A DNA stretch of 64,000 nucleotides from Microbacterium hydrocarbonoxydans (GTDB taxonomy: Bacteria; Actinomycetota; Actinomycetes; Actinomycetales; Microbacteriaceae). The translations under genes were made by a program, and so were the position numbers. Each line of letters begins with the position of its first letter. The stretch's first letter is position 1. The DNA is taken from the NCBI RefSeq assembly GCF_904831005.1, contig NZ_LR882982.1:1116001-1180000 (forward strand), read 5' to 3'. Below are positions 19,412 through 49,547 of the stretch, one piece after another. The notes beneath the pieces were generated by a model, which searched no databases, was not told the DNA's origin, and saw only the letters and a list, made by a program, of their open reading frames with translations.

Positions 19412-19451
19412 CGAAGGGGCGGATGCTGCCGCAGCAGCATCCGCCCCTTCG
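19412..19451. terminator. Bidirectional hairpin terminator
   Basis: Perfect 18-bp stem (19412-19429 with 19434-19451) with 4-base loop CGCA between the convergent PHP and helicase genes. Confidence 0.75.
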
Positions 19452-19476
19452 ATGTCTGGATCGAGCCCTGCGCCTC

Positions 19477-20991
19477 TCAGGCTCCGGCGACCGGGGTGGA
19501 TCCGGCTGCGCCAGAGCCGCCGCGCCGGCGACGCCGACGACGTGCAGGTGCGGGCTTGCCGTCGTGGTGCTCCTTGCCCGCTCCGTCATGCGTGCCGGCG
19601 CCTTCCGCGCTGCGGTCGGTCGTCGGCGCTGCGGACTCAGCCGTCTCGGCGTCGGACGCGCCCTCGGCGAACGTCGACCCGATCTGTGTCGAACCGCCGC
19701 GACGGCGACGGCGGCGACGAGTGCCGCTCTCGCCAGCCGCATCGGCGGCCACGTCTGCGGCGCGCTCCGGTCGCGGTGCGCGAGCCGGCTTCTCCGCCTT
19801 CGGTGCGCTCACGAGGCGACCCTTGGTGCCGGCGGGGATGTCGAGGTCCTCGAAGAGGTGCGGGCTCGACGAGTAGGTCTCGACGGGCTCGGGCTGGCCG
19901 AACTCGAGGGCTCGATTGATCAGCGCCCACTTGTGCAGGTCTTCCCAATCGACGAACGTGACGGCGATGCCGGTCTTGCCCGCGCGGCCGGTGCGCCCGA
20001 CACGGTGCAGGTAGGTCTTGTCCTCGTCGGGGATGGTGTGGTTGATGACGTGGGTCACGTCGTCGACGTCGATACCGCGGGCGGCGACGTCGGTCGCCAC
20101 GAGCACATCGCGCTTGCCGGCCTTGAAGGCGGCCATCGAACGCTCGCGCTGATCCTGGCCCATGTCACCGTGCACGCCGCCGACGTTGAAGCCGCGGTCG
20201 CTGAGCTCGTCGACGAGACGCTGCGCCGCGCGCTTGGTGCGGGTGAAGATCACCGTCTTGCCGCGGCCCTCGGCCTGCAGGATCCGGGCGATGATCTCGT
20301 CCTTGTCGAGCGAGTGCGCGCGATAGACGAGGTGCTTGATGTTGGCCTGGGTCAGACCCTCGTCGGGGTCGCTCGCGCGGATGTGGATCGGGTTCGTCAT
20401 GAACCGTCGGGCCAGGGCGACGATCGGACCGGGCATGGTCGCGGAGAAGAGCTGAGTGTGACGGACCGCGGGGACCTTCTGGAAGATCTTCTCGATGTCG
20501 GCGAGGAAGCCCAGGTCGAGCATCTTGTCGGCCTCGTCGAGCACGACCTCGGTCGCGTTGGACAGGTCGAGCAGACGCTGGCCCGCGAGGTCGATCAGAC
20601 GGCCGGGCGTGCCGACCACGATCTGCGCGCCGGCCTTGAGCTGGTCGATCTGGCCCTCGTAGGCCTTGCCGCCGTAGATGGCGACGACGCTCGTCGAGCG
20701 GTTGCTGGTGAGGAGGTCGATGTCTTCGTACACCTGCACCGCGAGCTCGCGGGTGGGTACGACGATGAGAGCCTTGACGCCGTGCTCGGGGTCGAGACCC
20801 AGTCGCTGCACGACGGGGATGCCGAAGCCGAAGGTCTTGCCCGTGCCGGTCTTGGCCTGGCCGATGATGTCCTGGCCGGGGAGGCCGAGGGGAATGGTCT
20901 GCTCCTGAATGGGGAACGCGTCGACGATGCCCTTGGAGGCGAGTGCGTCGATGATGTCCTGATCGATTCCGAGATCAGCGAAGGTTGTCAA
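19477..20991 (-). CDS. rhlE: DEAD-box RNA helicase, RhlE type
   Basis: 504 residues. Q motif DAFPIQEQTIP, Walker A AKTGTGKT near residue 48, PTRELA, VLDEADKML, LFSATM, and the C-terminal ATDVAARGIDVDDV and HRVGRTGRAG. The tail after residue 400 is disordered and holds two nearly identical runs of seven arginines followed by GGS, spaced about 65 residues apart. The start is a TTG at 20991; no in-frame ATG lies near, and the helicase core needs this N-terminus. It sits divergent from the ferritin-like gene, as Rv3211 does in mycobacteria. Confidence 0.93.
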   Translation of the reverse strand: MTTFADLGIDQDIIDALASKGIVDAFPIQEQTIPLGLPGQDIIGQAKTGTGKTFGFGIPVVQRLGLDPEHGVKALIVVPTRELAVQVYEDIDLLTSNRSTSVVAIYGGKAYEGQIDQLKAGAQIVVGTPGRLIDLAGQRLLDLSNATEVVLDEADKMLDLGFLADIEKIFQKVPAVRHTQLFSATMPGPIVALARRFMTNPIHIRASDPDEGLTQANIKHLVYRAHSLDKDEIIARILQAEGRGKTVIFTRTKRAAQRLVDELSDRGFNVGGVHGDMGQDQRERSMAAFKAGKRDVLVATDVAARGIDVDDVTHVINHTIPDEDKTYLHRVGRTGRAGKTGIAVTFVDWEDLHKWALINRALEFGQPEPVETYSSSPHLFEDLDIPAGTKGRLVSAPKAEKPARAPRPERAADVAADAAGESGTRRRRRRRGGSTQIGSTFAEGASDAETAESAAPTTDRSAEGAGTHDGAGKEHHDGKPAPARRRRRRRGGSGAAGSTPVAGA

Positions 20992-21147
20992 TGTTCAGAT
21001 GCCTGTCCGGCGACCTGCGAGGATCGCCCAGTTTCACGGATCCACGCCGTCTCATGTGCCACAGGCGCGGGCCCCGCTCCGACGGCGGGGACAGGGACAG
21101 CCTACCCGAGAGGGTCGGCAACGCCCGGAGATCATGTCCGGCCCGGG

Positions 21148-21153
21148 TAGTGT
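21148..21153 (+). promoter_or_regulatory. -10 box of leaderless ferritin-like gene
   Basis: TAGTGT followed by 6 bases and the GTG at 21160. Confidence 0.5.
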
Positions 21154-35542: not shown

Positions 35543-36637
35543 GTGGATCGAACCCGGCCCGCGAGGCTCGGACTCGGAGTCTGGGCGCTCGTCGTCGCGC
35601 TGGTCGCGCTCGTCGTCCTGACGTTCCTGCCGACGCCCTACGTGATCCAGCGGCCGGGACCCGTCTATGACACGCTCGGGACCGCGGCGGATGCTGACGG
35701 AGAGCAGGTGCCGCTCATCAACATCGAAGGGGCGGAGACGTTCGAGACCGCGGGCACGCTCGACCTCACCACGGTGCAGGTGGTCGGAAACCGCGAGCGC
35801 ACCCCCAGCTGGTTCGAGCTCGCACTCGCATGGACCGACAGCTCGAGAGCGGTGGTGCCGCTCGACTCGGTCTTCCCCGAGGGGGTCACCACCGAGCAGC
35901 GTGACGAGCGCAACGCCACGCTCATGGTCGATTCGCAGCACGAGGCGACGGCGGCCGCTTTGAACGCGCTGGGTTATGACACGGGCGCGCAGGTCGCTGT
36001 GGTCGACGTGCTCGACGGCTCACCCGCGCAGGGAGCCCTCGAGCCCGACGACATCGTGACGGCAGTCGGCGGCACGCCGGTGGTCTCGGCCAAGCAGCTG
36101 CGGCAGGCCATCCAGGACGCCGGGGGAGACCCGGTCATGCTCACGGTGCTGCGGGGCGGCGCGGAGCAGACGGTCGAGGTCACGCCCGAGAAGCAGGTCG
36201 AGGGCGACGTGACGACCTGGCTGATCGGCGTCACTCTGCGCACCGACTACGACTTCGAGATCGACGTCACCCTGCAGCTCGACAACGTCGGCGGTCCGAG
36301 TGCGGGGATGATGTTCGCCCTCGGCATCGTCGACACCCTCACCCCGGGCGAGCTCAACGGCGGCGAGAACATCGCGGGCACCGGCACGATCGAAGCCGAC
36401 GGCACCGTCGGCCCGATCGGGGGCATCCGCCAGAAGCTCTACGGTGCGCGCGACGCGGGTGCCTCGTTCTTCCTCGCACCGGAGTCGAACTGCGACGAGG
36501 TGGTCGGGCATGTGCCCGACGGGCTCACGGTGATCAGCACGGAGACGCTGGACGATTCCCTCGCCGCGCTCGACGTGATCGCCGACGGCGGAGAGCTCGA
36601 CTCGCTGCCGAGTTGCGACGTCGTGACCTCGCCGTGA
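35543..36637 (+). CDS. YlbL-family membrane-anchored PDZ-Lon protease
   Basis: 364 residues: a membrane helix (about 11-30, LGVWALVVALVALVVLTFL), a PDZ domain (about 130-220, VDVLDGSPAQGALEPDDIV) and a Lon-like protease domain. The catalytic dyad is visible as Ser253 in GGPSAGMMF and Lys298 in GIRQKLYGA. It should degrade or process extracytoplasmic or membrane proteins. The GTG start is preceded by GGAGG, so unlike its neighbours it has a leadered message. The UPF0182 gene follows after 46 bases with its own -10 box. Confidence 0.92.
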   Translation: MDRTRPARLGLGVWALVVALVALVVLTFLPTPYVIQRPGPVYDTLGTAADADGEQVPLINIEGAETFETAGTLDLTTVQVVGNRERTPSWFELALAWTDSSRAVVPLDSVFPEGVTTEQRDERNATLMVDSQHEATAAALNALGYDTGAQVAVVDVLDGSPAQGALEPDDIVTAVGGTPVVSAKQLRQAIQDAGGDPVMLTVLRGGAEQTVEVTPEKQVEGDVTTWLIGVTLRTDYDFEIDVTLQLDNVGGPSAGMMFALGIVDTLTPGELNGGENIAGTGTIEADGTVGPIGGIRQKLYGARDAGASFFLAPESNCDEVVGHVPDGLTVISTETLDDSLAALDVIADGGELDSLPSCDVVTSP

Positions 36638-36671
36638 CCGGGATGACAGCCGCAGCACAGTAAGGCATGCC

Positions 36672-36677
36672 TAGGAT
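36672..36677 (+). promoter_or_regulatory. -10 box of leaderless UPF0182 gene
   Basis: TAGGAT followed by 6 bases and the GTG at 36684. Confidence 0.6.
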
Positions 36678-36683
36678 GGAACG

Positions 36684-39581
36684 GTGACCTCGACTTCTGC
36701 ACCGAACCCGGCCACTCCCCGAACCTCGCGAAGAATCTTCGGCATCTCGTTGGCGATCATCGCCGCGCTGATCGCCGTCTTCTTCGTCTTCGCGTCGTTC
36801 TACACCGAATTCCTCTGGTTCGACCAGGTGGGCTTCGCGGGAGTTCTCACCACCCAGTGGTTCGCCACGGCGGTGATGTTCGTCGTCGGTTTCCTCGGCA
36901 TGGCCGTGCCGCTGTTCGTCGCGATCCAGCTGGCGTATCGACTCCGCCCCGTCTACGTGCGGCTGAGCTCGCAGCTCGATCGCTATCAGGAGGTCATCGA
37001 GCCGCTCCGTCGCCTCGCGATGTGGGGCATGCCGATCTTCTTCGGTCTCTTCGCCGGATTCTCGGCCGCGAGCCAGTGGAAGACGGTCTGGCTGTGGGCG
37101 AACGGCGTCGCCACCGACACGGTCGACCCGCAGTTCGGTCTCGACACCGGGTTCTACATGTTCGCGGTGCCGTTCTACTCCATCCTGCTCGCGTTCGTCT
37201 CCGCCGTGCTGCTGCTCACCTTGATCGTGACCGCACTGGTCTCGTACCTCTACGGCTCGGTCCGCATCGGCCAGGGTGAGCTGCGCATCTCGAAGCCGGC
37301 GCGCATCCAGCTCGCCGTCGTCGCGGGTCTCTACCTGCTGGTGCAGGCGGCGAGCCTGTGGCTCGACCGCTACAAGACGCTCTTCGCTCAGGACGACCGG
37401 ATCGTCGGCCCCGCCTACACGGGCGTCAATGCGACGATCCCGGGCCTCGCGATCCTCGCGATCATCGCCGCTCTCGTGGCGATCCTCTTCTTCGTCACTG
37501 CGGTGATCGGCCGCTGGCGCTTCCCGCTCGCGGCGACCGCACTGCTGATCGTCGCATCGCTGGTCGTGGGAGTCGGCTTCCCGTGGGCCGTGACCACTTT
37601 CCAGGTGCGACCGAACCAGAACGCCTACCAGGCGGAGTTCTACCAGAAGAACATCGACGGCACGAAGGAGGCGTACGGGGTCGCAGACCTCGAGACCACG
37701 CCGTTCGAGGCCGAGACCGATGCCGAGGCGGGACAGCTGCGGGAGGATGCCGAGACCACCGCGTCGATCCGCATCGTCGACCCCGCCGTGATCAGCCCGG
37801 CCGTGCGCCAGCTCGAGCAGTATCGCGGCTACTACCAGTTCCAGGAGAACCTCGACGTCGATCGCTATGAGATCAACGGTGAGATGCAGGACACCGTCGT
37901 CTCCGTGCGCGACCTCGACATGGAGGGCGTCGACGTCAGCAACTGGAACAACCGGGCCGCTGTGTACACGCACGGCTACGGCCTGGTCGTCGCGGCGGGC
38001 AACCAGCGCACGAGCGACGGAGAGCCGGTCTTCCTCGAGCGCGGCATCCCCTCCTCGGGCTTCCTCACCGACCAGGAGGAGTTCGAGCCGCGGATCTACT
38101 TCGGCGAGAACTCGCCCGAGTACTCGATCGTCGGTGCTCCGGAAGGCACGGATCCCGTCGAGATCGACTATCCGCGCGGCAAGGACGGCTCGAACGAGAC
38201 CAAGACCACTTTCGAAGGCGAGGGCGGGCCGGCGATCGACAACACGTTCACCAAGCTCCTCTACGCGCTCAAGTTCCAGTCCGAGCAGATCCTCTTCTCG
38301 AACCTCGTCAACGACGAGTCGCAGATCCTCTACGACCGCGACCCGAAGACCCGCGTGCAGAAGGTCGCCCCGTACCTCGAGCTCGACAGCGAGCCGTACC
38401 CCAGCGTGGTCGACGGACGTGTCGTCTGGATCATCGACGGCTACACGACGAGCTCGACCTACCCGTACTCGACGAGTGTGAGCCTGTCGGAGGCGATCGC
38501 GGACTCGAACGTGCCGTCGCCGACACTCGCCATCGACGAGATCAACTACATCCGCAACTCGGTGAAGGCCACGGTCGACGCCTACGACGGTTCGGTCACG
38601 CTGTACGCGTGGGACGACGAGGATCCGGTTCTGCAGAGCTGGCAGAACATCTATCCGTCGACGCTCAAGCCTGTCAGCGACATGTCGTCGGACCTGATGA
38701 GCCACGTGCGGTACCCGACCGATCTCTTCAAGGTCCAGCGCGATGTCCTCGGCATCTACCACATCGACACCGCGGGCTCGTTCGCTCAGCAGGACAACCG
38801 CTGGCAGACGCCGAACGATCCGCGAAGCGACGCGGTGCTCCAGCCGCCGTACTACTTGACCATGCAGATGCCGGGTCAGGATTCTCCGCGGTTCTCGATG
38901 TTCTCGACGTTCATCCCGTCGGCATCGGGGAGCGGAGGCAACCGAGATGTGCTGATGGGCTACCTCGCGGTCGATTCCGACGCGGGCTCGGAGGCCGGCG
39001 TCAAGGCCGAGGGCTACGGCCAGCTCAGGATGCTCGAGATCGACACCGACACGACGGTGCCCGGCCCCGGCCAGGTGCAGAACACGTACAACTCCGACAC
39101 AGCAGTGGTGCCACAGCTGAACCTGCTGCAGCAGGGTGAGTCCGAGGTGCTCTACGGAAACCTGCTGACCCTGCCGGTCGGCGGTGGTCTGCTCTACGTG
39201 CAGCCCGTCTACGTGCAGTCGTCGGAGGGCACGAAGCTGCCTCGACTCCAGAAGGTGCTGGTGGCCTTCGGTGACAAGGTGGCGTTCGAGGACACTCTGA
39301 CCGCCGCGCTCGACACGCTCTTCGGCGGAGACTCCGGAGCGACGGGCGGAGACGACCAGGTCGAGCCGACCCAGCCGGATCCGGACACCGGCGAGGTGCC
39401 GGCCGAGCCGTCGGTTCCGACCGACGTCGAAGCCGAGGCCCTCGCCGCGGCGCAGCAGGCGCTCAGCGACCGCGAGGCCGCTCTGAAGGAGGGCGACCTG
39501 ACGAAGTTTGCCGAGGCCGACAAGCGGCTCACGGATGCCGTGAACACGCTGCTCGGACTGGAAGCGGGTGCAGGGGAGTAA
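36684..39581 (+). CDS. UPF0182 family membrane protein
   Basis: 965 residues, the usual size of this actinobacterial and cyanobacterial family. Seven membrane helices fill the first 310 residues (for example IFGISLAIIAALIAVFFVF and FPLAATALLIVASLVVGV). A large extracytoplasmic domain follows, with the family blocks PNQNAYQAEFYQKNID and SVKATVDAYDGSVTLY. Residues about 885-925 are an acidic Pro/Glu linker, then a short coiled coil of Ala/Glu/Lys. Function unknown. Placed after ylbL as Rv3193c follows Rv3194c. A strong hairpin closes the unit. Confidence 0.93.
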   Translation: MTSTSAPNPATPRTSRRIFGISLAIIAALIAVFFVFASFYTEFLWFDQVGFAGVLTTQWFATAVMFVVGFLGMAVPLFVAIQLAYRLRPVYVRLSSQLDRYQEVIEPLRRLAMWGMPIFFGLFAGFSAASQWKTVWLWANGVATDTVDPQFGLDTGFYMFAVPFYSILLAFVSAVLLLTLIVTALVSYLYGSVRIGQGELRISKPARIQLAVVAGLYLLVQAASLWLDRYKTLFAQDDRIVGPAYTGVNATIPGLAILAIIAALVAILFFVTAVIGRWRFPLAATALLIVASLVVGVGFPWAVTTFQVRPNQNAYQAEFYQKNIDGTKEAYGVADLETTPFEAETDAEAGQLREDAETTASIRIVDPAVISPAVRQLEQYRGYYQFQENLDVDRYEINGEMQDTVVSVRDLDMEGVDVSNWNNRAAVYTHGYGLVVAAGNQRTSDGEPVFLERGIPSSGFLTDQEEFEPRIYFGENSPEYSIVGAPEGTDPVEIDYPRGKDGSNETKTTFEGEGGPAIDNTFTKLLYALKFQSEQILFSNLVNDESQILYDRDPKTRVQKVAPYLELDSEPYPSVVDGRVVWIIDGYTTSSTYPYSTSVSLSEAIADSNVPSPTLAIDEINYIRNSVKATVDAYDGSVTLYAWDDEDPVLQSWQNIYPSTLKPVSDMSSDLMSHVRYPTDLFKVQRDVLGIYHIDTAGSFAQQDNRWQTPNDPRSDAVLQPPYYLTMQMPGQDSPRFSMFSTFIPSASGSGGNRDVLMGYLAVDSDAGSEAGVKAEGYGQLRMLEIDTDTTVPGPGQVQNTYNSDTAVVPQLNLLQQGESEVLYGNLLTLPVGGGLLYVQPVYVQSSEGTKLPRLQKVLVAFGDKVAFEDTLTAALDTLFGGDSGATGGDDQVEPTQPDPDTGEVPAEPSVPTDVEAEALAAAQQALSDREAALKEGDLTKFAEADKRLTDAVNTLLGLEAGAGE

Positions 39582-39601
39582 GGCCTCCCTGCCGCACATG
39601 A

Positions 39602-39639
39602 ACGGATGCCGCCCCTCGCACGCGAGGGGCGGCATCCGT
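39602..39639. terminator. Bidirectional hairpin terminator
   Basis: Perfect 17-bp stem (39602-39618 with 39623-39639), loop CACG, 20 bases after the UPF0182 stop and before a convergent gene. Confidence 0.75.
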
Positions 39640-39690: not shown

Positions 39691-40281
39691 TCAGTTCGCG
39701 TCGTAGCGGCAGGTGACTGAGCCGAAGCCGCTCTGCTCCACGACCGACTCGCCGTTCCACAGGATCTGGCAGCTCACGGTGGCGACCGCGTCATCGTCCG
39801 ATGCGGTGACGACGATCTCAGCCGAATCGCCCGTCGTGGTGTATCGCTTGCTGCCGCTGTCGGACCACTCCTCGTCGTATGCCTGAGTGTCGTCCGCGTA
39901 GGACACCGTGAACACCGGGCCCCCCGTCGCGCGCACCTCGACCTGGCTGAGTCCGGTGCTGCCGAGCACGCCCACCGCGATCACGGCGACGAGCACGAGA
40001 TCGACGACGAGCGCGACCGCTGCGACCACGATGGCCGCCGTCTCGATGAGCGGCGCTGCAGACCGCCTGCCTCGCACACCGAGGGCGACGGCCGTGATCG
40101 CGAGGAGGGCAGCGGACACGGCGAGAAGCAGCAGGGCGACGGTGGGCAGCAGGACCGCGATCAGGCCTGCGGAGAGCAGCAGTGCCACTGCACCGATCCA
40201 GACCGCGGTGATCCCGCGCCGGGATGAGCGGGACACTGACGCGTCATCATTCGCGGAGGCGGCATCCGGCGTCTGCGTCAT
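39691..40281 (-). CDS. Membrane protein with MmpS-like C-terminal domain
   Basis: 196 residues. Three helices between about 24 and 105 precede an extracytoplasmic beta domain with VEVRATGGPVFTVSY and two cysteines (VSCQILWNGESVVEQ, then VTCRYDAN) in the pattern of MmpS/transport-accessory proteins, probably disulphide bonded. The ATG has GGAGG upstream and a -10 box TAGACT at 40351-40356 on the minus strand. No MmpL transporter is nearby, so the role is open. Confidence 0.65.
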   Translation of the reverse strand: MTQTPDAASANDDASVSRSSRRGITAVWIGAVALLLSAGLIAVLLPTVALLLLAVSAALLAITAVALGVRGRRSAAPLIETAAIVVAAVALVVDLVLVAVIAVGVLGSTGLSQVEVRATGGPVFTVSYADDTQAYDEEWSDSGSKRYTTTGDSAEIVVTASDDDAVATVSCQILWNGESVVEQSGFGSVTCRYDAN

Positions 40282-40350
40282 GAGGGACCTCCGAGTCGTG
40301 GACGCTGCATCTCTCGCGCAGCCGCCGGCGCACGCGCCGTTCGGAGCGAC

Positions 40351-40356
40351 AGTCTA
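40351..40356 (-). promoter_or_regulatory. -10 box of the MmpS-like gene
   Basis: TAGACT on the minus strand about 70 bases before the ATG at 40281; the leader carries a GGAGG ribosome site. Confidence 0.5.
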
Positions 40357-40412
40357 GCCAGGGAGGCGTGCACGCCTCGGAAGTGGGGGACGGGCATCGG
40401 ACGTGCGCATGC

Positions 40413-40453
40413 GAAAGGCCCCTGATCAGGATTTCTCCGATCAGGGGCCTTTC
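40413..40453. terminator. Hairpin terminator downstream of tRNA
   Basis: Perfect 15-bp stem (40413-40427 with 40439-40453) with an 11-base loop, 17 bases beyond the 3' end of the minus-strand tRNA. Confidence 0.7.
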
Positions 40454-40469
40454 TTGTGTCGCATTCTCG

Positions 40470-40543
40470 TTGCGGGGACAGGATTTGAACCTGCGACCTC
40501 CGGGTTATGAGCCCGGCGAGCTACCGAACTGCTCCACCCCGCG
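40470..40543 (-). tRNA. Initiator tRNA-fMet (CAU)
   Basis: A 74-base cloverleaf without encoded CCA. Read on the minus strand, the acceptor strands CGCGGGG and CCCCGCA leave a C1:A72 mismatch, the hallmark of initiator tRNA. The anticodon stem CGGG-CTCATAA-CCCG carries the three consecutive G:C pairs also needed by initiators, with anticodon CAT. The T-arm is CAGG-TTCAAAT-CCTG. It stands alone, followed by a hairpin. Confidence 0.95.
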
Positions 40544-40622
40544 GCACGTTTTATAGCCTAACACGGGAATTCGGAGGGCGCGAATCGAGGCCGCGCCAGG
40601 TCGGATGGGGAAGGATGTGAGG

Positions 40623-41435
40623 ATGACCGAGACAGCATCCGCCGCCGTTCCCGTCGCCGTCTGCCAGTTCGCGCCGACGGCTTCACGAGACGGCAACCGT
40701 GACCTGATCGCGGCCATGACGGCGGATGCCGCGCGTCGGGGAGCCCGGCTGATCGTCTTCCCGGAGTACTCGAGCTACTTCGTCGACCCGATGGATGAGA
40801 CGCTCGCGGCGAATGCCGAGACGCTCGACGGCGACTTCGTCTCGACCCTCACCGCGCTCGCTGCCGATCACGGTGTCGTCATCGTGGCCGGCCTCGTCGA
40901 GAGAGCTTCTGACGCCCACCGCGTGCACAACACGCTCGTCGCGGTGCGCGGCGACGGGATCCTTGCGACCTACCGCAAGCAGCACCTGTACGACGCCTTC
41001 GGGCAGACGGAGTCCGACTGGATCGAGGCGGGGGCGCTCGGCGCCGCGACCTTCGATGTCGCCGGCATCCGATTCGGGCTCATGACCTGTTACGACCTGC
41101 GCTTTCCCGAGGTGGCGCGCACGCTCGTCGACGAGGGCGCCGACGCGCTCGTCGTTCCTGCGGAATGGGTGCGCGGTCCGCTCAAGGAGCATCACTGGAC
41201 GACTCTCCTCGCTGCGCGGGCGATCGAGAACACGGTGTTCGTCATCGCCGCGGATCACCCGGTACCGGTGGGAGTGGGGCACTCGCAGATCATCGATCCG
41301 CTCGGCGTCGTGGTCGCCGGCGTCGGCCTGGATGCCGGCATCGCCGTCGCGACGGTCGAGCGCTCCGCAGTGCAGCGCGTGCGCGAGACGAACCCGTCGC
41401 TCCGCGTGCGCCGGTACGCGGTCGTGCCGCGCTGA
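40623..41435 (+). CDS. Carbon-nitrogen hydrolase (nitrilase superfamily)
   Basis: 270 residues with the complete Glu-Lys-Cys triad: Glu in IVFPEYSSYF, Lys in TYRKQHLYDAF and Cys in LMTCYDLRFPE. The closing ERSAVQRVRETNPSLR resembles the deaminated-glutathione amidase (Nit1) and omega-amidase branch, which would remove ammonia from a small amide; the exact substrate cannot be fixed. The ATG at 40623 is preferred to an ATG six codons earlier because AAGGA and GTGAGG precede it. Confidence 0.85.
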   Translation: MTETASAAVPVAVCQFAPTASRDGNRDLIAAMTADAARRGARLIVFPEYSSYFVDPMDETLAANAETLDGDFVSTLTALAADHGVVIVAGLVERASDAHRVHNTLVAVRGDGILATYRKQHLYDAFGQTESDWIEAGALGAATFDVAGIRFGLMTCYDLRFPEVARTLVDEGADALVVPAEWVRGPLKEHHWTTLLAARAIENTVFVIAADHPVPVGVGHSQIIDPLGVVVAGVGLDAGIAVATVERSAVQRVRETNPSLRVRRYAVVPR

Positions 41436-41450
41436 CGGCTCGGCGCCGCG

Positions 41451-42650
41451 TCAGAAGCTCGTGGCGAGGCGCCGCGCGGCCTCCTCGAGGACGTCGATGC
41501 GTTTGCAGGCTGCGAAACGCACGAGCCCCGAGACGTCGCCGCGATGCGCGGGGGAGACGAAGGCCGTGAGCGGGATCGCGACGACCCCCGCCTGCTCCGG
41601 CAGACTGCGGCAGAACGCCGCTGCGTCGGAACCGCCCAGCGAGGTCGCGTCTGCGACGGTGAAGTATCCTCCCTGCGGCGCGAACACGGTGAATCCGGCT
41701 GAGGCGAGGCCTGCACCGAGAACCTCGTGCTTCGCGGCGAGCGTCGACGCCGCCCCGGTGAAGTACTCGTCGCCGAGCCGCAGTCCGACCGCGATCGCAG
41801 GCTGCAGAGGGGAGCCGTTGACGTAGGTCAGGTACTGCTTCACGGTGAGCACCGCGGTGATCAGTGGTGCCGGCCCGTGCACCCACCCGATCTTCCAGCC
41901 CGTGGTCGAGAACGTCTTCCCGGCTGACGAGATCGTGAGCGTGCGCCGGGCGGCCCCGGGCAGCGTCGCGATCGGAGTGTGCGGCGCGTGGAACGCGAGG
42001 TGCTCGTAGACCTCGTCCGTCACGATCACGGCGTCATGCGCGTCAGCGAGGCGGACGATCTCGGTGAGCACCTCGTGGTCGAAGACGGCGCCGGTGGGAT
42101 TGTGCGGGTCGTTGACCAGGATGATCCGAGTGCGGTCCGTGACCGCCGCCGCGAGACGGTCGAGATCGGGCTGGAAGTCGGGAGCGCGCAGCGGCACCGT
42201 GCGCAATCGCGCCCCCGCCAGCGCGACGGCCGCGGCGTACGAGTCGTAGTACGGCTCGAAGACGACCACCTCGTCATCCGGTCCGTCGATCAGCGCGAGG
42301 ATCGTCGCAGTCAGCGCCTCGGTCGCGCCGGCGGTGACGATCACCTCGGTGTCGGGGTCGACGTCGAGGCCGTAGAACCGCCGCTGATGCTCGGAGATCG
42401 CAGACAGGAGATCCGGGACCCCACGCCCCGGCGGATACTGGTTCGCTCCCGCCGTGATGGCGCTGCGAGCGGCGTCGAGCACCTCGACCGGTCCGTCCTC
42501 ATCGGGGAACCCCTGACCCAGATTGATGGCGCCGGTTCTGGCCGCCGCTGCCGACATCTCTGCGAAGATGGTGGGTGCGACGCTTCCGTCTGGTGCGAGA
42601 AGACCGGCTCCCGCTGCAGTGCGCCGCCAGGCGCCGGGGATGACACTCAT
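41451..42650 (-). CDS. Class I/II PLP-dependent aminotransferase
   Basis: 399 residues. Visible blocks are INLGQGFPDEDGP, ANQYPPGRGVPDLL, DPHNPTGAVF, VTDEVYEHLAF and the PLP-lysine motif SSAGKTFSTTGWKIGW. These resemble the kynurenine/glutamine transaminase (YbdL/DapC-like) branch. A neighbouring nitrilase-family hydrolase suits a transaminase/omega-amidase pair, in which the 2-oxo-acid amide made here is hydrolysed there; this is an inference from convergent adjacency. TAGCCT lies 7 bases before the ATG on the minus strand. Confidence 0.85.
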   Translation of the reverse strand: MSVIPGAWRRTAAGAGLLAPDGSVAPTIFAEMSAAAARTGAINLGQGFPDEDGPVEVLDAARSAITAGANQYPPGRGVPDLLSAISEHQRRFYGLDVDPDTEVIVTAGATEALTATILALIDGPDDEVVVFEPYYDSYAAAVALAGARLRTVPLRAPDFQPDLDRLAAAVTDRTRIILVNDPHNPTGAVFDHEVLTEIVRLADAHDAVIVTDEVYEHLAFHAPHTPIATLPGAARRTLTISSAGKTFSTTGWKIGWVHGPAPLITAVLTVKQYLTYVNGSPLQPAIAVGLRLGDEYFTGAASTLAAKHEVLGAGLASAGFTVFAPQGGYFTVADATSLGGSDAAAFCRSLPEQAGVVAIPLTAFVSPAHRGDVSGLVRFAACKRIDVLEEAARRLATSF

Positions 42651-42657
42651 GAAGAAC

Positions 42658-42663
42658 AGGCTA
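42658..42663 (-). promoter_or_regulatory. -10 box of near-leaderless aminotransferase promoter
   Basis: TAGCCT on the minus strand, 7 bases before the ATG at 42650. Confidence 0.5.
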
Positions 42664-42748
42664 AGGCCATAGGTGACACTCATCTTCGCCATACGAAACG
42701 CACAGATACACACGTCACTCTGAAGGGGCGTTGTTGAAGGAGCACACC

Positions 42749-44350
42749 ATGAACGAAGACAGCACCCAGGACCACTCGGTACCCGCGTCGCACGACGCCG
42801 TGCCGTCCACCGAGGCAGCAGAGGCCGTCGACCGTTCGACGTCCCAGCCTGCCGTCGAGACCCCGCGCGCCCCGGCCGCGTCGAACGTCGGCCAGGGGCA
42901 TGAGGTGCCACCGACGTTCACGTCGCCCCCCGCAGTGCCCGGTGGGCCCAGCGCGGTCGCCGCCGCGCAGCATCCGGCGGGCATTCCGCCCCGCCCGGAG
43001 TCGCCGTACGCGGCTCCCCAGATCTCGCCCACGCCGAGTGCCGCAGGTCAGCACGCCACGGCTCAGGGCGCTGCGTTCGGCATCCACACCGCCACACCGT
43101 CGGGAGTCGGCGGCGAGACGGTCTCGGATGCGCCCAAGACCAAGGAGAAGCCGCGCGCGGGTGTGAAGTTCGCGGCGATCGTGGTCGCGGCAGCCCTCGT
43201 CGGCGGGGTCGCCGGCTTCGGTGGCGGCGCCATCCTCAACGGCATCTCGGAGCAGAACTCGACCGGTGTCGCCCAGGGGCCCGAGACCGTGACGGTCAAC
43301 AACCCCGGTTCGGTCAACGAGACCACAGCGGTCGCGACCGCGGCTCTCCCGTCGGTCGTCACCATCGAGGTCGCCGGTTCGAGCGAGGCAGGCAGCGGCT
43401 CCGGGGTCATCATCAGCGATGACGGATACGTGCTGACCAACACTCACGTCGTCACGCTCGGCGGCGCAGTGGCGGATCCCACGATCCGGGTCACGACCTC
43501 GGACGGACGTATCTTCTCGGCCACGGTGGTCGGAACGGATCCGCTCTACGATCTGGCGGTCATCAAGCTCACGGATGCGACCGACCTCACGCCGATCGAT
43601 TTCGCCGACTCCTCCGATCTCAACGTCGGCGACACCGCCGTGGCGCTGGGCGCGCCCCTCGGGCTGTCGAACTCGGTCACGACGGGTATCGTGAGCGCGC
43701 TGAACCGCAGCATCCAGATCGCATCCTCGGCTCTTCCGGACTCATCATCCGAGGACGCTCCTCAGCAGGAGGAGTCTCCCGAGAACGGTCAGAGCGAGGG
43801 GCCGTTCCAGTTCGATCTTCCTGGCAACACGGCACAGCCGACCTCGGAGTCGATCTCGATCGCCGTCATCCAGACCGATGCGGCGATCAACCACGGCAAC
43901 TCGGGCGGCGCTCTCGTGAACAGCAAGGGTGAGCTCATCGGCATCAACGTGGCGATCGCGAGTTCGGGAAGCTCCGAGGAAGGGGGGTCGATCGGCATCG
44001 GCTTCGCGATCCCGTCGAACGTCGCTCAGCGGGTGTCGGAGGAGATCATCGCAGACGGCGCCGCGACGCACGGTCTGCTCGGAGCGTCGGTACAGGACGC
44101 TGCGAGCGCCGAGAACGCGGAGGTCGCCGGTGCCCTGATCGCCAACGTGTCCGACGGGGGAGCCGCTGCGGCGGCCGGGCTGAAGGCGAACGACGTCGTG
44201 ACGGCCTTCAACGGAGTTCCCGTCACGAGCGCCACCGACCTCACCGCCCAGGTGCGCGCGGCGGCCGGCGGCAGCGATGCCACCGTCACGTACATCCGGG
44301 GCGGCAAGGAGTACGAGATCGACGTGACCCTCGGCACGCTGGCCGGCTGA
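42749..44350 (+). CDS. htrA: HtrA/DegP-like serine protease
   Basis: 533 residues. A disordered Pro/Ala-rich cytoplasmic N-terminus of about 130 residues precedes one membrane helix (KFAAIVVAAALVGGVAGF). Outside the membrane lie a trypsin-like domain with His233 (LTNTHVV), Asp268 (LYDLAVIKL) and Ser385 (GNSGGAL), and one PDZ domain (about 440-530). An acidic, Glu/Ser-rich insert (about 330-355) sits in a loop of the protease domain. It should act in envelope protein quality control. AAGGAG lies 8 bases before the ATG; an upstream in-frame TTG is less likely. Confidence 0.93.
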   Translation: MNEDSTQDHSVPASHDAVPSTEAAEAVDRSTSQPAVETPRAPAASNVGQGHEVPPTFTSPPAVPGGPSAVAAAQHPAGIPPRPESPYAAPQISPTPSAAGQHATAQGAAFGIHTATPSGVGGETVSDAPKTKEKPRAGVKFAAIVVAAALVGGVAGFGGGAILNGISEQNSTGVAQGPETVTVNNPGSVNETTAVATAALPSVVTIEVAGSSEAGSGSGVIISDDGYVLTNTHVVTLGGAVADPTIRVTTSDGRIFSATVVGTDPLYDLAVIKLTDATDLTPIDFADSSDLNVGDTAVALGAPLGLSNSVTTGIVSALNRSIQIASSALPDSSSEDAPQQEESPENGQSEGPFQFDLPGNTAQPTSESISIAVIQTDAAINHGNSGGALVNSKGELIGINVAIASSGSSEEGGSIGIGFAIPSNVAQRVSEEIIADGAATHGLLGASVQDAASAENAEVAGALIANVSDGGAAAAAGLKANDVVTAFNGVPVTSATDLTAQVRAAAGGSDATVTYIRGGKEYEIDVTLGTLAG

Positions 44351-44371
44351 CGCACAGACGGCCGAGCGCAC

Positions 44372-44420
44372 AGAGAAGGACGCCACCCCGCGATAGGCTC
44401 GCGGGGTGGCGTCCTTCTCT
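44372..44420. terminator. 22-bp perfect inverted repeat, htrA terminator overlapping next gene
   Basis: Arms 44372-44393 and 44399-44420 are perfectly complementary, with 5-base loop TAGGC. The right arm contains the GTG start and first codons of the next gene, and the loop plus one base forms its -10 box TAGGCT. Confidence 0.8.
44394..44399 (+). promoter_or_regulatory. -10 box of leaderless CDP-glycerol transferase gene
   Basis: TAGGCT followed by 6 bases and the GTG at 44406; it lies in the loop of the htrA hairpin. Confidence 0.6.
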
Positions 44421-45659
44421 TTCGGCTCCGGCAATGCGGCCAAGCTGCTCAGGATCCCGCTCTACCTCGTCGGCCGGCTCGGAACCGCACTGATTCCGCG
44501 AGGTGAACGCTGGGTGTTCGGATGCGGCGCCGGGGTCGGCGACGGCGCTCTCGCGCTGCAGCGCCTGGTCGCGGCCGAGGGCCACGACACGCTGTGGCTC
44601 ACGTCGTCGGAACGTGAGCGGAGTGACGCCGCCGCGCTCGGCATCCCCTCGGTGCCGAAGGCGGCTCTGCGCGGCTGGTGGGCGACGGCGCGCGCCGGCG
44701 TGCTCGTGGTGACACACGGGCTGGGCGATGCGAACCGCTATGCGAACGGCGGTGCGTTCGTCGTGCAGCTCTGGCACGGCATCCCTCTCAAGCGCATCGG
44801 GCTGGATTCTCCGGCCACGGTTCAGGTGCCCGACGTTCCGGGTGCGCCCGTCCTCCGACGGCTCATCGCGCTGCTCTACCGCAGCGTCGCTCAGCGGATT
44901 CGCGTTCTTCCCGCGGCATCGCATCGAGCGCGCGGTCGTCTCGAATCCGCCTTCGCGCTCGGCGACGATCGGGTGGTCGTGACAGGGGAGCCCCGCGTCG
45001 ATGTGCTCTCCAGCGGCACGGTGACGGAACGCAGGCGGGTCGCGACCGAACGGATCAGCGATGCCGTCGGCGACGTGTCGCCGACGGCGCGAACGATCCT
45101 GTACGCCCCGACCTGGCGTGACGGGGCTCCGGATCCGGCAGTGCCCACCGCGGAGCAGTGGGTGCGGATCGTCACGGTGCTCGAGCAGCACGACGCCATC
45201 CTGCTGGTGCGTTCGCACCCGCTGGGAGCGGGCGGGTACGCACCGCCGATCCCGACCGACCGAGTGCGGTCGCTGGGATCGGCCCTGCTCCCGGACGTGA
45301 CTCCTGCGCTGGCTGCCGTCGATGTGCTCGTGACCGACTACTCGTCACTGGCCTACGACGTCGGGCTGCTCGCGATGCCGGTGCTCTTCCTCGCCCCGGA
45401 TGCAGACGACTATGCGGCCACCCGCGGGTTCTACGGGCGGTTCGAGGACGTGGCGGGAGAAGATCCCGCGCTGGACTGGGACGCGCTGCTCTCGCGACTG
45501 GTCGCACTGCTCGACGACGACGCGGCGTTCGAGGAGGCCTCCGCGAGGTCCGCTACGCTCAGCGCGGAGATGCATGCGTTCCGCGACGGGCGCAACACCC
45601 GACGGGTGTACGAGACGATCCGAGCGCGGGGAATCCCCGCGCCGAAGGGAGCAGCATGA
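44406..45659 (+). CDS. CDP-glycerol glycerophosphotransferase family protein (1)
   Basis: 417 residues of the TagB/TagF fold that adds glycerol-phosphate (or a related polyol phosphate) to a lipid-linked wall polymer. Family blocks: VVQLWHGIPLKRIG, LYAPTWRDG, LLVRSHPL and the closing DVLVTDYSSLAYDVGLLAMPV. No full membrane anchor is seen, but the first helix (LLRIPLYLVGRLGTALI) is amphipathic and could bind the membrane. The gene is coupled to a second family member by an ATGA overlap. Confidence 0.85.
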   Translation: MASFSFGSGNAAKLLRIPLYLVGRLGTALIPRGERWVFGCGAGVGDGALALQRLVAAEGHDTLWLTSSERERSDAAALGIPSVPKAALRGWWATARAGVLVVTHGLGDANRYANGGAFVVQLWHGIPLKRIGLDSPATVQVPDVPGAPVLRRLIALLYRSVAQRIRVLPAASHRARGRLESAFALGDDRVVVTGEPRVDVLSSGTVTERRRVATERISDAVGDVSPTARTILYAPTWRDGAPDPAVPTAEQWVRIVTVLEQHDAILLVRSHPLGAGGYAPPIPTDRVRSLGSALLPDVTPALAAVDVLVTDYSSLAYDVGLLAMPVLFLAPDADDYAATRGFYGRFEDVAGEDPALDWDALLSRLVALLDDDAAFEEASARSATLSAEMHAFRDGRNTRRVYETIRARGIPAPKGAA

Positions 45660-47092
45660 CGACGGCCCGTATCGATGAGGCGGCAGAGACGCTGATCATC
45701 ACCGGGGCAGGGCCGCGTCCCGGCAGTGCCGAGCTCGTGGGCCCGCGCGCCCGCGTCGCCGCGCGCGTGACGGGCGGCGGCAAGACGTGGAAGGCGACCT
45801 TCCCCCTGACGGCCGCGCGGTGGGGTGGGCCCGAGCTGCCATTGCCCGCGGGCGCATACGAGCTGCGCATCAGCGAGGTGGACGTCGAGGGCCTCGCCCT
45901 CACGCCGACCCTGCTCACGGGGGTGCGGATCGCGGTGGACGCGGGGGTCGCCCATGTCGCGGCTCCGATCGACCCGGTGTACGAGACCGTCGAGGGGCAG
46001 GCGACTCTCGAAGGCCGGTACGTCTCCCACCCCGGAGGCACCGAGAACGCCGTCTTCTTCGAGAGCTTCTACGGGCGCAGCGTCGGCTGCAACCCCCGGG
46101 CGATCGACCGCGCCCTGGCCGCAGTGGCACCCGACGTGGTGCGCTACTGGAGCGTCGTGGATCTCTCGGTCGAGGTGCCGGAGGGCGCCATCGCCGTCGT
46201 CGAGGGCAGCCCGGAGTGGTGGAGGGCGCGCGCCGCGGCGCGGCTCCTGATCGTCAACGACTGGCTACGACGGCGTTTCGCGCGCAAACCCGGGCAGAAG
46301 GTCCTGCAGACGTGGCACGGCACCCCGCTGAAGCGACTCGCGCTGCATCGTCCTGGCTTCGATCCGAGGCGCATGGCGGCGGTCGTCAAGGAATCGCGCC
46401 GGTGGGATGTCCTCCTTGCCCAGAACACCTATGCCGAGCGCATTCTCCGCAAGGCCTACGCCTTCTTCGGGCGGCCGATCTGGGTCGAAGGCTACCCGCG
46501 CAACGACGCCCTCGTCGACGGAGAGTCCTCGGGGATCCGCACAGCACTCGGCATCGCCGAAGACGAGCACGTGCTGCTCTACGCGCCGACCTGGCGAGAC
46601 GATCGCAGCGAGATGGTCGACTTCATCGATCCCGAGCAGCTCGCGCTCCAGACCGACTCGGTCGTTCTGGTCCGTGGGCACTCGCGCACGATCGACACGG
46701 ACCGCGACCGCGCGGGCGCGCGCGTCATCGACGTGACGGGTTTTCCTGAGACGGCGCAGTTGCTGCTCGCGGCCGACGCGCTGATCACCGACTATTCCTC
46801 GGTGATGTTCGACTTCAGCGTCACAGGCAAGCCGATGTACTTCCTGGTCCCCGACCTCGATCACTACCGCGGAGAGCTTCGCGGCTTCTATTTCGATCTC
46901 GCCAGCCGCGCGCCCGGACCCCTCGTGCGCACGCAGGACGAACTCGTCGCGGCGCTGGCTGATGAGACGCACGAGGCGACTTTCGCGGAGCGGTACTCCC
47001 AGTGGCGCGCGCAGTTCAACAGGCGTGACGACGGGAATGCCGCGGAGCGGGTCGTCGCGCGCATCCTCGATCAGGGGTACATCACGCGCTGA
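45656..47092 (+). CDS. CDP-glycerol glycerophosphotransferase family protein (2)
   Basis: 478 residues. An N-terminal beta-rich module of about 120 residues (ARIDEAAETLIITGAGPRP) of unknown type precedes the TagB/TagF domain with LQTWHGTPLKRLAL, LYAPTWRDDR, LVRGHSR and ALITDYSSVMFDFSVTGKP. Both catalytic-type histidines of the family (WHG and RGH/RSH) are present. The ATG overlaps the previous stop. Two dissimilar paralogues in tandem suggest a primase and a polymerase, or two linkage types. Confidence 0.87.
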   Translation: MTTARIDEAAETLIITGAGPRPGSAELVGPRARVAARVTGGGKTWKATFPLTAARWGGPELPLPAGAYELRISEVDVEGLALTPTLLTGVRIAVDAGVAHVAAPIDPVYETVEGQATLEGRYVSHPGGTENAVFFESFYGRSVGCNPRAIDRALAAVAPDVVRYWSVVDLSVEVPEGAIAVVEGSPEWWRARAAARLLIVNDWLRRRFARKPGQKVLQTWHGTPLKRLALHRPGFDPRRMAAVVKESRRWDVLLAQNTYAERILRKAYAFFGRPIWVEGYPRNDALVDGESSGIRTALGIAEDEHVLLYAPTWRDDRSEMVDFIDPEQLALQTDSVVLVRGHSRTIDTDRDRAGARVIDVTGFPETAQLLLAADALITDYSSVMFDFSVTGKPMYFLVPDLDHYRGELRGFYFDLASRAPGPLVRTQDELVAALADETHEATFAERYSQWRAQFNRRDDGNAAERVVARILDQGYITR

Positions 47093-47113
47093 TCGGATGT
47101 CGCTGCGCGCTGA

Positions 47114-48187
47114 TCAGGGAAGAGGCGTGTTCTGCGTGCCCAGCCGCGAGGCGTCGACCGTGTCGCGAGCCCCGCGGAGCACGCCGCCGATGAAGCCGAG
47201 CCCCCAGGACAGGTGCATGGTGGGGAGCACGAGCAGCGTCCAGAGCCTCTGACGCGGCCCGCCTCCGCCGGGGAGGCACGCGACCGCGACGACGAGTGCG
47301 ACGTAGAGCACGATCGGAAGGTGCACGAGCAGCGACAGCACCGCAGAGAACCAGCCGCCGACGACACCCGTCACCTGGAGCACGCCGGTCACCACGGCGA
47401 GTCCGACGAGGACGACGAGCGCCGGTGGAGCGAAATAGCGGATGCCGTTGCGACGGCCGAACCGGCGAACGAGCTCACCACGCCACGCACCGGTCGCGCG
47501 GAACTGCCGCGCGAGGCGAAGCCAGCTCTCACGGGGCCAGTAGGTCACCGAGAGCCGCGGATCGAACCACACCCGGTGGCCGGCCTGGCGGATGCGCAGA
47601 TTGAGTTCCCAGTCCTCGCCGCGGCGGATCGTCTCATCGAAGAGCCCGACTTCGTCGAGCACCTCGCGGCGCATCACGCCGAGATACGCCGATTCGGCTT
47701 CGCCTTCGTGCGTCCCACCGTGGTACGCGCCGCCGCCGAGTCCGACGGGGGAGTTGTAGAGACGCGCGACCGCCTTCTGGAACGGCGTGCGGCCTTCTGC
47801 ATGCATGACTCCGCCCACGTTGGCGGCACCCGTGCGGTCGAGGGTCTCGAGCGCACGGGCGGCGTATCCGGGTGCGAGCTCGGAGTGCGCATCGACGCGG
47901 ACGATCGTGGCGTATCTGCTCGCACGGATCGCGGCGTTGAGGCCGACCGGGATGTGAGCCGCGGGGTTGTCGACGAGACGGATGCGCTCGTCGCCCGCCG
48001 CGAGGCGCTGTGCGAGCTGCGTCGTGCCGTCGGAGGAGGGCCCGAGCGCCAGCACGAGTTCTGCCGGGATGTCGAGTTCCTGTGCCAGGACGGAGGCGAC
48101 AGCGTGTTCCAGGTATGCCCGCTCGTTGAGGACGGGCATCACGAACGACACCCCGGGCGCAGGGGAGTGGGAGTCGTCGTGGGGCAC
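47114..48187 (-). CDS. Family 2 glycosyltransferase with C-terminal membrane helices
   Basis: 357 residues. A GT-A domain (about 12-240) with VSFVMPVLNERAYL, the metal-site VRVDAHSEL (DxD-like) and RRGEDWELNLRIRQAGH (the ED acid) is followed by three or four helices (about 250-335). This layout resembles ExoA of succinoglycan synthesis, which extends a lipid-linked sugar on the cytoplasmic face. It lies between CDP-glycerol transferase genes on the opposite strand, divergent from the third one. The ATG at 48187 is the natural start. Confidence 0.85.
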   Translation of the reverse strand: MPHDDSHSPAPGVSFVMPVLNERAYLEHAVASVLAQELDIPAELVLALGPSSDGTTQLAQRLAAGDERIRLVDNPAAHIPVGLNAAIRASRYATIVRVDAHSELAPGYAARALETLDRTGAANVGGVMHAEGRTPFQKAVARLYNSPVGLGGGAYHGGTHEGEAESAYLGVMRREVLDEVGLFDETIRRGEDWELNLRIRQAGHRVWFDPRLSVTYWPRESWLRLARQFRATGAWRGELVRRFGRRNGIRYFAPPALVVLVGLAVVTGVLQVTGVVGGWFSAVLSLLVHLPIVLYVALVVAVACLPGGGGPRQRLWTLLVLPTMHLSWGLGFIGGVLRGARDTVDASRLGTQNTPLP

Positions 48188-48251
48188 ATGACGATCATGG
48201 CATGCGCTCGTCGGACGTTCGCTGATTCCACGAGAGGTGGCGGCCCCTCGG

Positions 48252-48257
48252 TATCCT
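48252..48257 (+). promoter_or_regulatory. -10 box of leaderless CDP-glycerol transferase gene (3)
   Basis: TATCCT followed by 6 bases and the ATG at 48264. Confidence 0.55.
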
Positions 48258-48263
48258 GGAGGG

Positions 48264-49547
48264 ATGGGTGCCGTGTCGGATGCGAAGAAGGCCTACCGTC
48301 TGCTGAAGCGGGCGCTCGCCTCGCGAACCGCCGTGCAGCGCGTGCGCAGGCGGCTGGCTGAGAGCGAACCGCACCAACCCGGGCAGTACAAGGTGGCCGT
48401 GTACTTCGCCGACGGCGCCGTCAACATGTACCAGATGCGCCAGTGGTATCGACCGCTCGCCGAGTTGGCGAAGCGTTGGCCCGTCGTGGTGCTGGCCCGC
48501 GCGGCGACGGGGGCCGACAAGCTCCTCGACGAGGATGCGCCACCGGTGGCGTTCGTTCCCACGGTGCGCGACCTCGAGCGATTCATCGCCACGCAGGACA
48601 TCCGCGTCGTGCTGTATGTGAACCAGAACACCCGCAACTTCCAGATGTTCCGGTACGGCCGACGGTGGCACGTCTTCATCAACCACGGCGAGTCCGACAA
48701 GATGTACATGACCACGAACCAGTACAAGGCCTACGACTATGCGTTCGTCGCGGGCCAGGCGGCACGCGACCGGCTGTCACGGACTCTGTGGGACTACGAC
48801 ATCGACCGGCGGACGCTCGAGATCGGGCGTCCGCAGGCCGACCACTACTCGGGCCGACTGCCGTATACGCCGGATGATCGGATCGTCGTGCTCTACGCAC
48901 CGACGTGGGAGGGGGATCGTCCGAGCGCGCACTACGGGTCGATCGCGACTCACGGTGAGAAGCTCGTCGCTGCGCTGCTGGCGTCGAGCCGCCATCGGGT
49001 GATCTATCGGCCGCATCCGCGGAGCGGAGTGGTCGACCACGAGTACGGCGCCGCGCACAAGCGCATCGTCGCCGCGATCGCCGCCGCCAACGCGGGGGAT
49101 CCCTCGGCTCAGCACGTCTACGACCATGGCGCCGATCTCGGGTGGCAGCTGGCGGCGGCCGACGTCGCCGTCGTCGACATCTCTGCGATGGTCTATGACC
49201 GGCTCGCCGTCGGCAAGCCGCTGCTGATCACACGCCCCGCCGACGAGCGGGCGTCGGTCGACACGAACGGATATCTGTCCGACTGCGAGTGGCTGGACGC
49301 GGATGCAGCGAAGGGCATCGTCGCCGAGGTCGAGCGCGTCCGCGCCGATGAGGCTGCCACCGCCCGTCTGCGGATGTGGGTTCAGCACTACTTCGGCGAC
49401 ACCACCGAGGGCGCGGCGACCGAGAAGTTCCACGCCGCGATCGAGCGACTCATGCAGGAATGGGATCACTGGCACGGGCACGAGGTCGGCGCAGTCCGCG
49501 GTGACGAAGACGATGACGACGATGAAGTCGACGACGAGGAGGTCTGA
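48264..49547 (+). CDS. CDP-glycerol glycerophosphotransferase family protein (3)
   Basis: 427 residues, more distant from the other two. It has YKVAVYFADGAVNMYQMRQWYRPL, VFINHGESDK in place of the usual WHG block, LYAPTWEGDRPSAHYG, VIYRPHPRSG and VAVVDISAMVYDRLAVGKPL. NHGESDK for WHGTPLK is the main change. The C-terminus is a run of Asp/Glu. I chose the ATG at 48264 from the -10 box 6 bases upstream; in-frame codons before it run through the promoter. The stop shares a base with the birA start. Confidence 0.82.
   Translation: MGAVSDAKKAYRLLKRALASRTAVQRVRRRLAESEPHQPGQYKVAVYFADGAVNMYQMRQWYRPLAELAKRWPVVVLARAATGADKLLDEDAPPVAFVPTVRDLERFIATQDIRVVLYVNQNTRNFQMFRYGRRWHVFINHGESDKMYMTTNQYKAYDYAFVAGQAARDRLSRTLWDYDIDRRTLEIGRPQADHYSGRLPYTPDDRIVVLYAPTWEGDRPSAHYGSIATHGEKLVAALLASSRHRVIYRPHPRSGVVDHEYGAAHKRIVAAIAAANAGDPSAQHVYDHGADLGWQLAAADVAVVDISAMVYDRLAVGKPLLITRPADERASVDTNGYLSDCEWLDADAAKGIVAEVERVRADEAATARLRMWVQHYFGDTTEGAATEKFHAAIERLMQEWDHWHGHEVGAVRGDEDDDDDEVDDEEV

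Follow-up and report, generated by a model that had tools for sequence, protein, structure and literature searches.

The window, a stretch of 64,000 nucleotides of Microbacterium hydrocarbonoxydans DNA, lies in a 3.72-Mb genome assembled as a single contig. A gene for an htrA-like serine protease with trypsin_2 and PDZ domains in Pfam (htrA; 42731–44350, forward strand, stop codon 44348–44350) is followed on the same strand by gly1 (44406–45659), whose 417-residue product matches the CDP-glycerol glycerophosphotransferase-like family PF04464 (Pfam E 2e-44). Behind gly1 lies gly2 (45656–47092, forward strand), which encodes a second PF04464 protein (Pfam E 6e-88), and then a GT2 gene (47114–48187) in the reverse orientation. 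Presumably gly1 and gly2 are co-transcribed, judging by the overlap between the stop of the one and the start of the other.

A 22-bp perfect inverted repeat begins 22 nt beyond the htrA stop codon. Its non-coding left arm (44372–44393) forms 22 Watson–Crick pairs out of 22 with the right arm (44399–44420), leaving TAGGC (44394–44398) as the loop. The loop and the next base together read TAGGCT (44394–44399), a TAnnnT-type −10 box for gly1, so that the right arm opens with the last T of the box. The box ends 6 nt before a GTG codon (44406–44408), which sits within the right arm and opens the 417-residue PF04464 frame; from 44406 onwards the right arm is coding. The initial annotation of the window had described this layout, and all of it was reproduced here.

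The hairpin is far beyond chance. It is the longest of the 15 perfect hairpins (at least 9 bp, loop of 3–10) in the window, the runner-up having 18 bp, and with independent bases only ∼5e-7 stems of at least 22 bp are expected in 64 kb. The RNA fold of 44350–44450 has a predicted energy of −67.1 kcal/mol, compared with −38.95 ± 3.82 kcal/mol for 200 shuffles (z −7.4). In an Rfam search of 40000–49000 no family scored above its gathering score at the hairpin, the sole match being a tRNA at 40470–40543, and the plasmid records searched gave no match.

Hairpins of at least 12 pairs, with a loop of 3–14 and at most one mismatch, were then counted in 464 kb of the genome (the window and 20 further stretches of 20 kb each, 12.5% of the total). 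Of the 74 found, only the one at htrA/gly1 carries a TAnnnT box together with a start codon in its right arm. Within these 464 kb the layout is therefore not a general habit of the genome, and the htrA/gly1 junction is special in the sampled part.

A search for gly1 in 198 Microbacterium genomes gave matches in 175 and none in 23. We compared 151 of the 175 loci (L002–L111, L134, L135 and L190–L228). Five of them (L063, L065, L066, L068 and L201) are referred to as split and the other 146 as coupled. The comparison with other genera of the same family used 24 loci. In all 151 genus loci htrA is directly upstream of gly1 on the same strand, as located by tblastn. In none of the 24 other-genus loci is htrA upstream of gly1; the two genes are convergent and 1.2 to 3.1 kb apart (24 genomes; L136–L159 and L161–L184), and a homologue of the GT2 gene at 47114–48187 lies downstream of htrA in the same direction in all 24.

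Across 42731–48187 of the window, the GT2–gly2–gly1 block is inverted relative to all 24 other-genus genomes. A single inversion of this block would explain the difference in gene order, and would have put a leaderless gly1 promoter immediately behind htrA. A hairpin of at least 12 pairs follows htrA in only 9 of the 24 other-genus loci, so such a hairpin is not universal for htrA.

In each of the 151 genus loci a TAnnnT sequence occupies positions −12 to −7 of the gly1 start, always 6 nt before the start codon. The box is TAGGCT in 138 loci, TAGAGT in 4, TAAGCT and TACGCT in 3 each, and TAGTCT, TAGCAT and TAGGAT in 1 each. The start codon is GTG in 134 loci and ATG in 17. Among the best same-genus protein matches listed, the alignments start at residue 1 or 2, with the exception of G184 (residue 5). 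These alignments, together with the invariant box position, support GTG 44406 as the true start of gly1. A four-base Shine–Dalgarno core was absent from positions −16 to −4 in 147 of the 151 loci and present in the other four. A −10 box held at a fixed short distance from the start codon is the sequence pattern of a leaderless TANNNT promoter, and the natural reading is that the gly1 promoter is likely to be leaderless.

In Mycobacterium tuberculosis, according to excerpts of PMC3898074, leaderless transcripts are common and 73% of primary starts have a TANNNT centred 7–12 bp ahead of them, without a −35 motif. The gly1 promoter resembles the actinobacterial promoters described there in its −10 box without a recognised −35 motif and, as we infer here, in a start codon at the 5′ end of the transcript. 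It differs from them in being embedded in the hairpin of an upstream gene. We considered the left arm as a candidate −35 box and ruled this out on its variable distance from an unchanged −10 box: an extra 19 to 29 nt separates the best pairing from the box in L074, L075, L076, L078, L081, L086, L087, L089, L199 and L200, and an arm displaced by up to 29 nt leaves no fixed −35 box.

Among the other-genus loci, 11 of 24 have TAnnnT 5–8 nt ahead of the start codon without the hairpin, against a background of 12 in 2192 start-like triplets of the window. This spacing is absent in the other 13, some of which have a near-match by eye.

To compare pairing across loci, each right arm was scored against its best partner over positions −4 to +11, out of 16, with a threshold of 12.5. 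A left-arm partner scoring at least 12.5 was found in 139 of the 151 genus loci. The loci below the threshold are the five split loci, L198 (9), L046 (10.5), L077 (11), L213 and L222 (11.5 each), and L221 and L224 (12 each). Of the 146 coupled loci, 90 have the partner at the canonical spacing, and in the others it is shifted by −3 to +29 nt. In the other genera, where the match start was used for the 13 loci without a recognised start, the right arm scores only 8–11.5 of 16 for complementarity to the 75 nt upstream; all 24 loci lack the pairing.

Covariation was analysed in 52 junctions hand-picked from the 90 loci with canonical spacing, variant right arms being favoured. In these junctions, which were chosen partly by pairing and are thus biased towards structure, 86.6% of the cells of the 22-pair structure are paired, 8 of the 22 pairs have two-sided changes and the covariation value is 0.123. 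The corresponding shuffle means are 83.9%, 3.3 pairs and 0.074, and none of 500 shuffles matched the observed value on any of five measures. Six control structures slid by 1–3 columns were lower on all measures (maxima 53.5%, 3 and 0.053). No compensating change was seen in the inner five pairs of the 52 junctions, three of which are invariant and two of which have 1 and 4 unpaired cells; the outermost pairs are frequently broken.

Across all 146 coupled loci there are 101 departures from the right-arm consensus, comprising 55 two-sided compensations, 11 wobbles and 35 breaks, counts that lean towards structure because partner positions were set by maximising pairing. The sequence change GCG to GGG is accompanied by a compensating partner in 4 of 4 loci, and GCG to GCA in 2 of 2. 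A matching T is present in the left arm of 15 of the 17 loci with an ATG start, the exceptions being L198 and L228. On a rough tree, 9 changes fall on the first base of the start codon, 7 of them two-sided; both changes at +4 are two-sided, and none of the 8 at −1 is. Where the right arm departs from the consensus (69 loci), the locus's own arm beats the consensus arm by 39 to 22 with 8 ties (p 0.04); taking one locus per distinct variant arm, the result is 17 to 5 with 4 ties. Synonymous diversity, expressed as effective codons, is 1.04, 1.36 and 1.07 at codons 2–4 and rises to 2.9 at codon 5, the end of the stem. Beyond the stem, codon 6 is as low again (1.07), which makes low codon diversity weak evidence for the stem.

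The initial annotation had asked whether the pairing is kept in relatives despite base changes, and had held that its loss at conserved gene order would tell against the proposal. The pairing is kept, the matching base in 15 ATG loci being among the clear cases. Five of the 151 loci have lost it, all of them with a different strong hairpin after htrA, and it is weak in a few others, among them L198 and L046.

The stem also occurs without the gene. We searched 20 of the 23 genus genomes with no gly1 match and found htrA in 17, each time with a hairpin of 12–22 pairs whose onset is within 45 nt of the htrA stop. GCCACC and GGTGGC are both present in 9 of these 17 stretches, and another loose form matched in 11; the arms in L239 are ACGACGCCACCCCGCGA and TCGCGGGGTGGCGTCGT, and the remaining hairpins are less similar in their arms. 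The pattern TAnnnT-N5–8-RTG was found within 110 nt of htrA in none of the 17, and the 1.5 kb downstream of htrA gave no match to gly1, gly2 or GT2. With a hairpin in 17 of 17 genomes and box plus start in 0 of 17, a hairpin behind htrA appears to be retained where gly1 is absent, and the box does not. A protein tree built on ∼80 residues is uninformative on whether the 17 genomes form one clade, since the smallest clade containing them takes in all rows.

The five split loci have a separate strong htrA hairpin and a gly1 promoter without the left arm. In L063, L065 and L066, the hairpin behind htrA is complete and includes a copy of the coding arm (GGCGTCC) that lies at −127, −70 and −70, respectively, relative to the gly1 start; promoter and start are present a second time at gly1, there with no left arm. 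In L068 and L201, the strong hairpins after htrA are unrelated to the element. A rough tree gives three splitting events, and in every one htrA still has a hairpin and gly1 its box. Taken across the genus, the comparison supports a pairing that is maintained, a fixed spacing between box and start, and a stem and box that are separable.

An intrinsic terminator consists of a long GC-rich stem just past the stop codon, followed by a U-run. The sequence behind htrA has the first of these features, a stable, long GC-rich stem-loop shortly past the stop codon, as well as a pyrimidine-rich 3′ flank, and genus loci both with and without gly1 have hairpins in this place. It differs from an intrinsic terminator in that no U-run passes the scan and in that the 3′ arm is gly1 coding sequence. 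A terminator scan of 42500–46000 reported no terminator-like site, the hairpin being missed because the U-run after the stem is missing; the tract that follows the GC part of the stem is CTTCTCTTTC. Termination of htrA transcription at the hairpin, as the initial annotation suggested, is putative, and the missing canonical U-run tells against it.

We consider it probable that 44372–44420 is a composite element, in which the 3′-end hairpin of htrA and the leaderless promoter and start of gly1 share 49 bases. htrA RNA crossing these positions would fold into the long GC-rich hairpin, which would set the 3′ end of the htrA message through termination, as a barrier to 3′ exonucleases, or both. RNA polymerase would read TAGGCT, which in the RNA is the loop plus one base, as the gly1 promoter, and gly1 transcription would begin at or beside GTG 44406. 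The leaderless transcript would hold just the start-side part of the right arm and is thus expected neither to terminate itself nor to hide its start. In htrA RNA that reads through, the gly1 start would be buried in the hairpin. Of the three functions that the initial annotation had assigned to one element, the comparison supports an htrA hairpin and a likely leaderless promoter and start in the same 49 bases; termination, the point of transcription start and the effect on translation we infer.

Less probable, though possible, is that the hairpin is a 3′-exonuclease barrier or processing site that acts after Rho-dependent termination, with the promoter overlap as economical packing. The missing U-run and the very stable GC stem are both consistent with this. 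Weak evidence to the contrary comes from the lower stem, whose left strand is rich in A/G and right strand in C/T, as in some other long hairpins: by a criterion defined after the htrA hairpin had been seen, 9 of the 74 long hairpins, including that of htrA, have this composition compared with 3.3% of random 11-mers. This alternative overlaps with the composite element because a terminator and a 3′ barrier cannot be separated from sequence.

A more ambitious and doubtful reading takes the palindrome as a direct transcriptional link of envelope stress to surface-polymer synthesis, a one-way switch between htrA and gly1. Polymerases finishing htrA would pause or end over the gly1 promoter, so that high htrA transcription would occlude gly1, and read-through RNA would be untranslatable for gly1. 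In a bolder variant, an extruded cruciform may offer TAGGCT to a sigma factor as a single-stranded loop.

We think it unlikely that protection from read-through is the function under selection, with the hairpin barring translation of gly1 from htrA RNA in the manner of T4 gene e or Tn10. Folding predictions are part of the case for it. In read-through RNA the start codon has a predicted unpaired probability below 0.1 in 144 of the 146 coupled loci; the same is predicted for 1 of 5 split loci and for 4 of 11 other-genus loci without the hairpin. In leaderless RNA the predicted median is 0.54 for the coupled loci (above 0.5 in 77 of 146, below 0.1 in 27), 0.004 for the split loci (below 0.1 in 3 of 5) and 0.51 for the other genera. 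The statement of the initial annotation that the start is buried on read-through and open when leaderless is matched by the folding predictions in its first half; for its second half the predictions are mixed, with 27 coupled loci predicted to be closed even when leaderless. Pairing across the start codon also tracks the switches between GTG and ATG, and is present where htrA is upstream, in the genus, and absent otherwise, in the 24 other-genus loci.

Set against this, a hairpin follows htrA in all 17 genomes that have htrA and no gly1 match, the arms being recognisably related in 9 to 11 cases, and in the five split loci the start lies outside the htrA hairpin and is predicted to be closed on read-through RNA in only one. 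A block on translation from read-through RNA, which the initial annotation had proposed, is therefore plausible from the predicted folds but is not needed to explain conservation, since the hairpin persists without the gene. It may also be redundant, as 147 of 151 loci have no Shine–Dalgarno core.

The nearest parallels come from phage T4, where excerpts of PMC3014915 and PMC2988022 describe late promoters of gene e (lysozyme), I-TevI and segB that lie by or in a hairpin hiding the start in longer RNAs. As with gene e and I-TevI, a long upstream RNA would fold a hairpin over the start, and an internal promoter would give an RNA from which the 5′ strand is missing and which is accessible to translation. 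Conservation of the start-covering pairing with compensating changes, as seen here, is what a start-hiding hairpin of the T4 type would display. Compared with the T4 genes as described in those excerpts, the Microbacterium element belongs to a cellular gene pair, is apparently leaderless with no Shine–Dalgarno sequence, and has its −10 box as the loop. A further difference from T4 is that the hairpin apparently also serves as the htrA 3′ end and is kept where gly1 was not found.

Insertion sequences can be protected from outside transcription: terminators upstream of transposase genes stop expression in transcribed insertion sites, as stated in excerpts of PMC2965389, which cites Davis et al. 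(1985) for Tn10 and Beuzon et al. (1999) for IS200. The element resembles such insertion sequences in that a terminator or RNA structure would block downstream expression from read-through. Unlike insertion sequences as presented there, which may have any neighbour, it has one fixed partner, htrA, and its left arm is absent where htrA is not upstream. Among the open-licence papers listed, judged by titles and the opening lines of abstracts and so a weak guide to what is in print overall, no such element was recognised.

It is very unlikely that the arms match for mutational reasons, through repair templated by the inverted repeat without selection. The site does rearrange: L101 has tandem arm copies, and the arm is duplicated in L063, L065 and L066. 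However, the arms persist throughout the genus while the flanking intergenic sequence is unrelated by eye, and the five loci without the left arm have another strong hairpin after htrA. The least credible explanation, a DNA operator at which a dimeric regulator binds the palindrome over the gly1 promoter, has in its favour a perfect palindrome with the −10 box at its centre, but was rejected because the arms change in a compensating manner and are separated by distances that differ by up to 29 nt, unlike a fixed half-site geometry, and hairpins with related arms lie behind htrA where the promoter is absent.

If the composite element is correct, signals that are usually separate share ∼50 bases and are retained jointly in most of the genus members examined. 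Gene finders handle terminators, promoters and coding starts separately; here all three apparently overlap, which would be possible because leaderless genes need neither a leader nor a Shine–Dalgarno sequence. Compensating changes extend through a start codon, and the loci with stem only, gene only, or the two side by side amount to a natural comparative experiment. The comparison may show how a leaderless gene adapts to being set directly behind another gene by a rearrangement.

The palindromic core of the promoter is not a repeated sequence in its own genome, where GCGATAGGCTCGC occurs once, at the gly1 junction; it was found in 9 of 20 genomes searched. One genome has a second copy of GCGATAGGCTCGC away from gly1 (G011:C13:124161-124173). 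In L101 (G157), tandem copies of left arm plus box, with a unit of ∼50 nt, lie ∼150 nt ahead of the gly1 start. Of the 74 hairpins counted above, 19 lie inside predicted genes, according to a rough gene call with an incomplete gene list. Two hairpins of the window have an ATG in an arm at the apparent start of a reading frame: an 18-bp hairpin at 19412–19451 (frame 19423–21150, forward strand) and a 17-bp hairpin at 39602–39639 (frame 36534–39635, reverse strand). In both cases the frame may be over-extended and the hairpin an ordinary gene-end one. Named genome contigs contain 67 exact matches to a 35-nt core of the element, 63 of them in contigs titled Microbacterium. The exact 35-nt Microbacterium junction is also carried by contig_49 of Stenotrophomonas maltophilia strain P13 (L252), which is probably assembly contamination.
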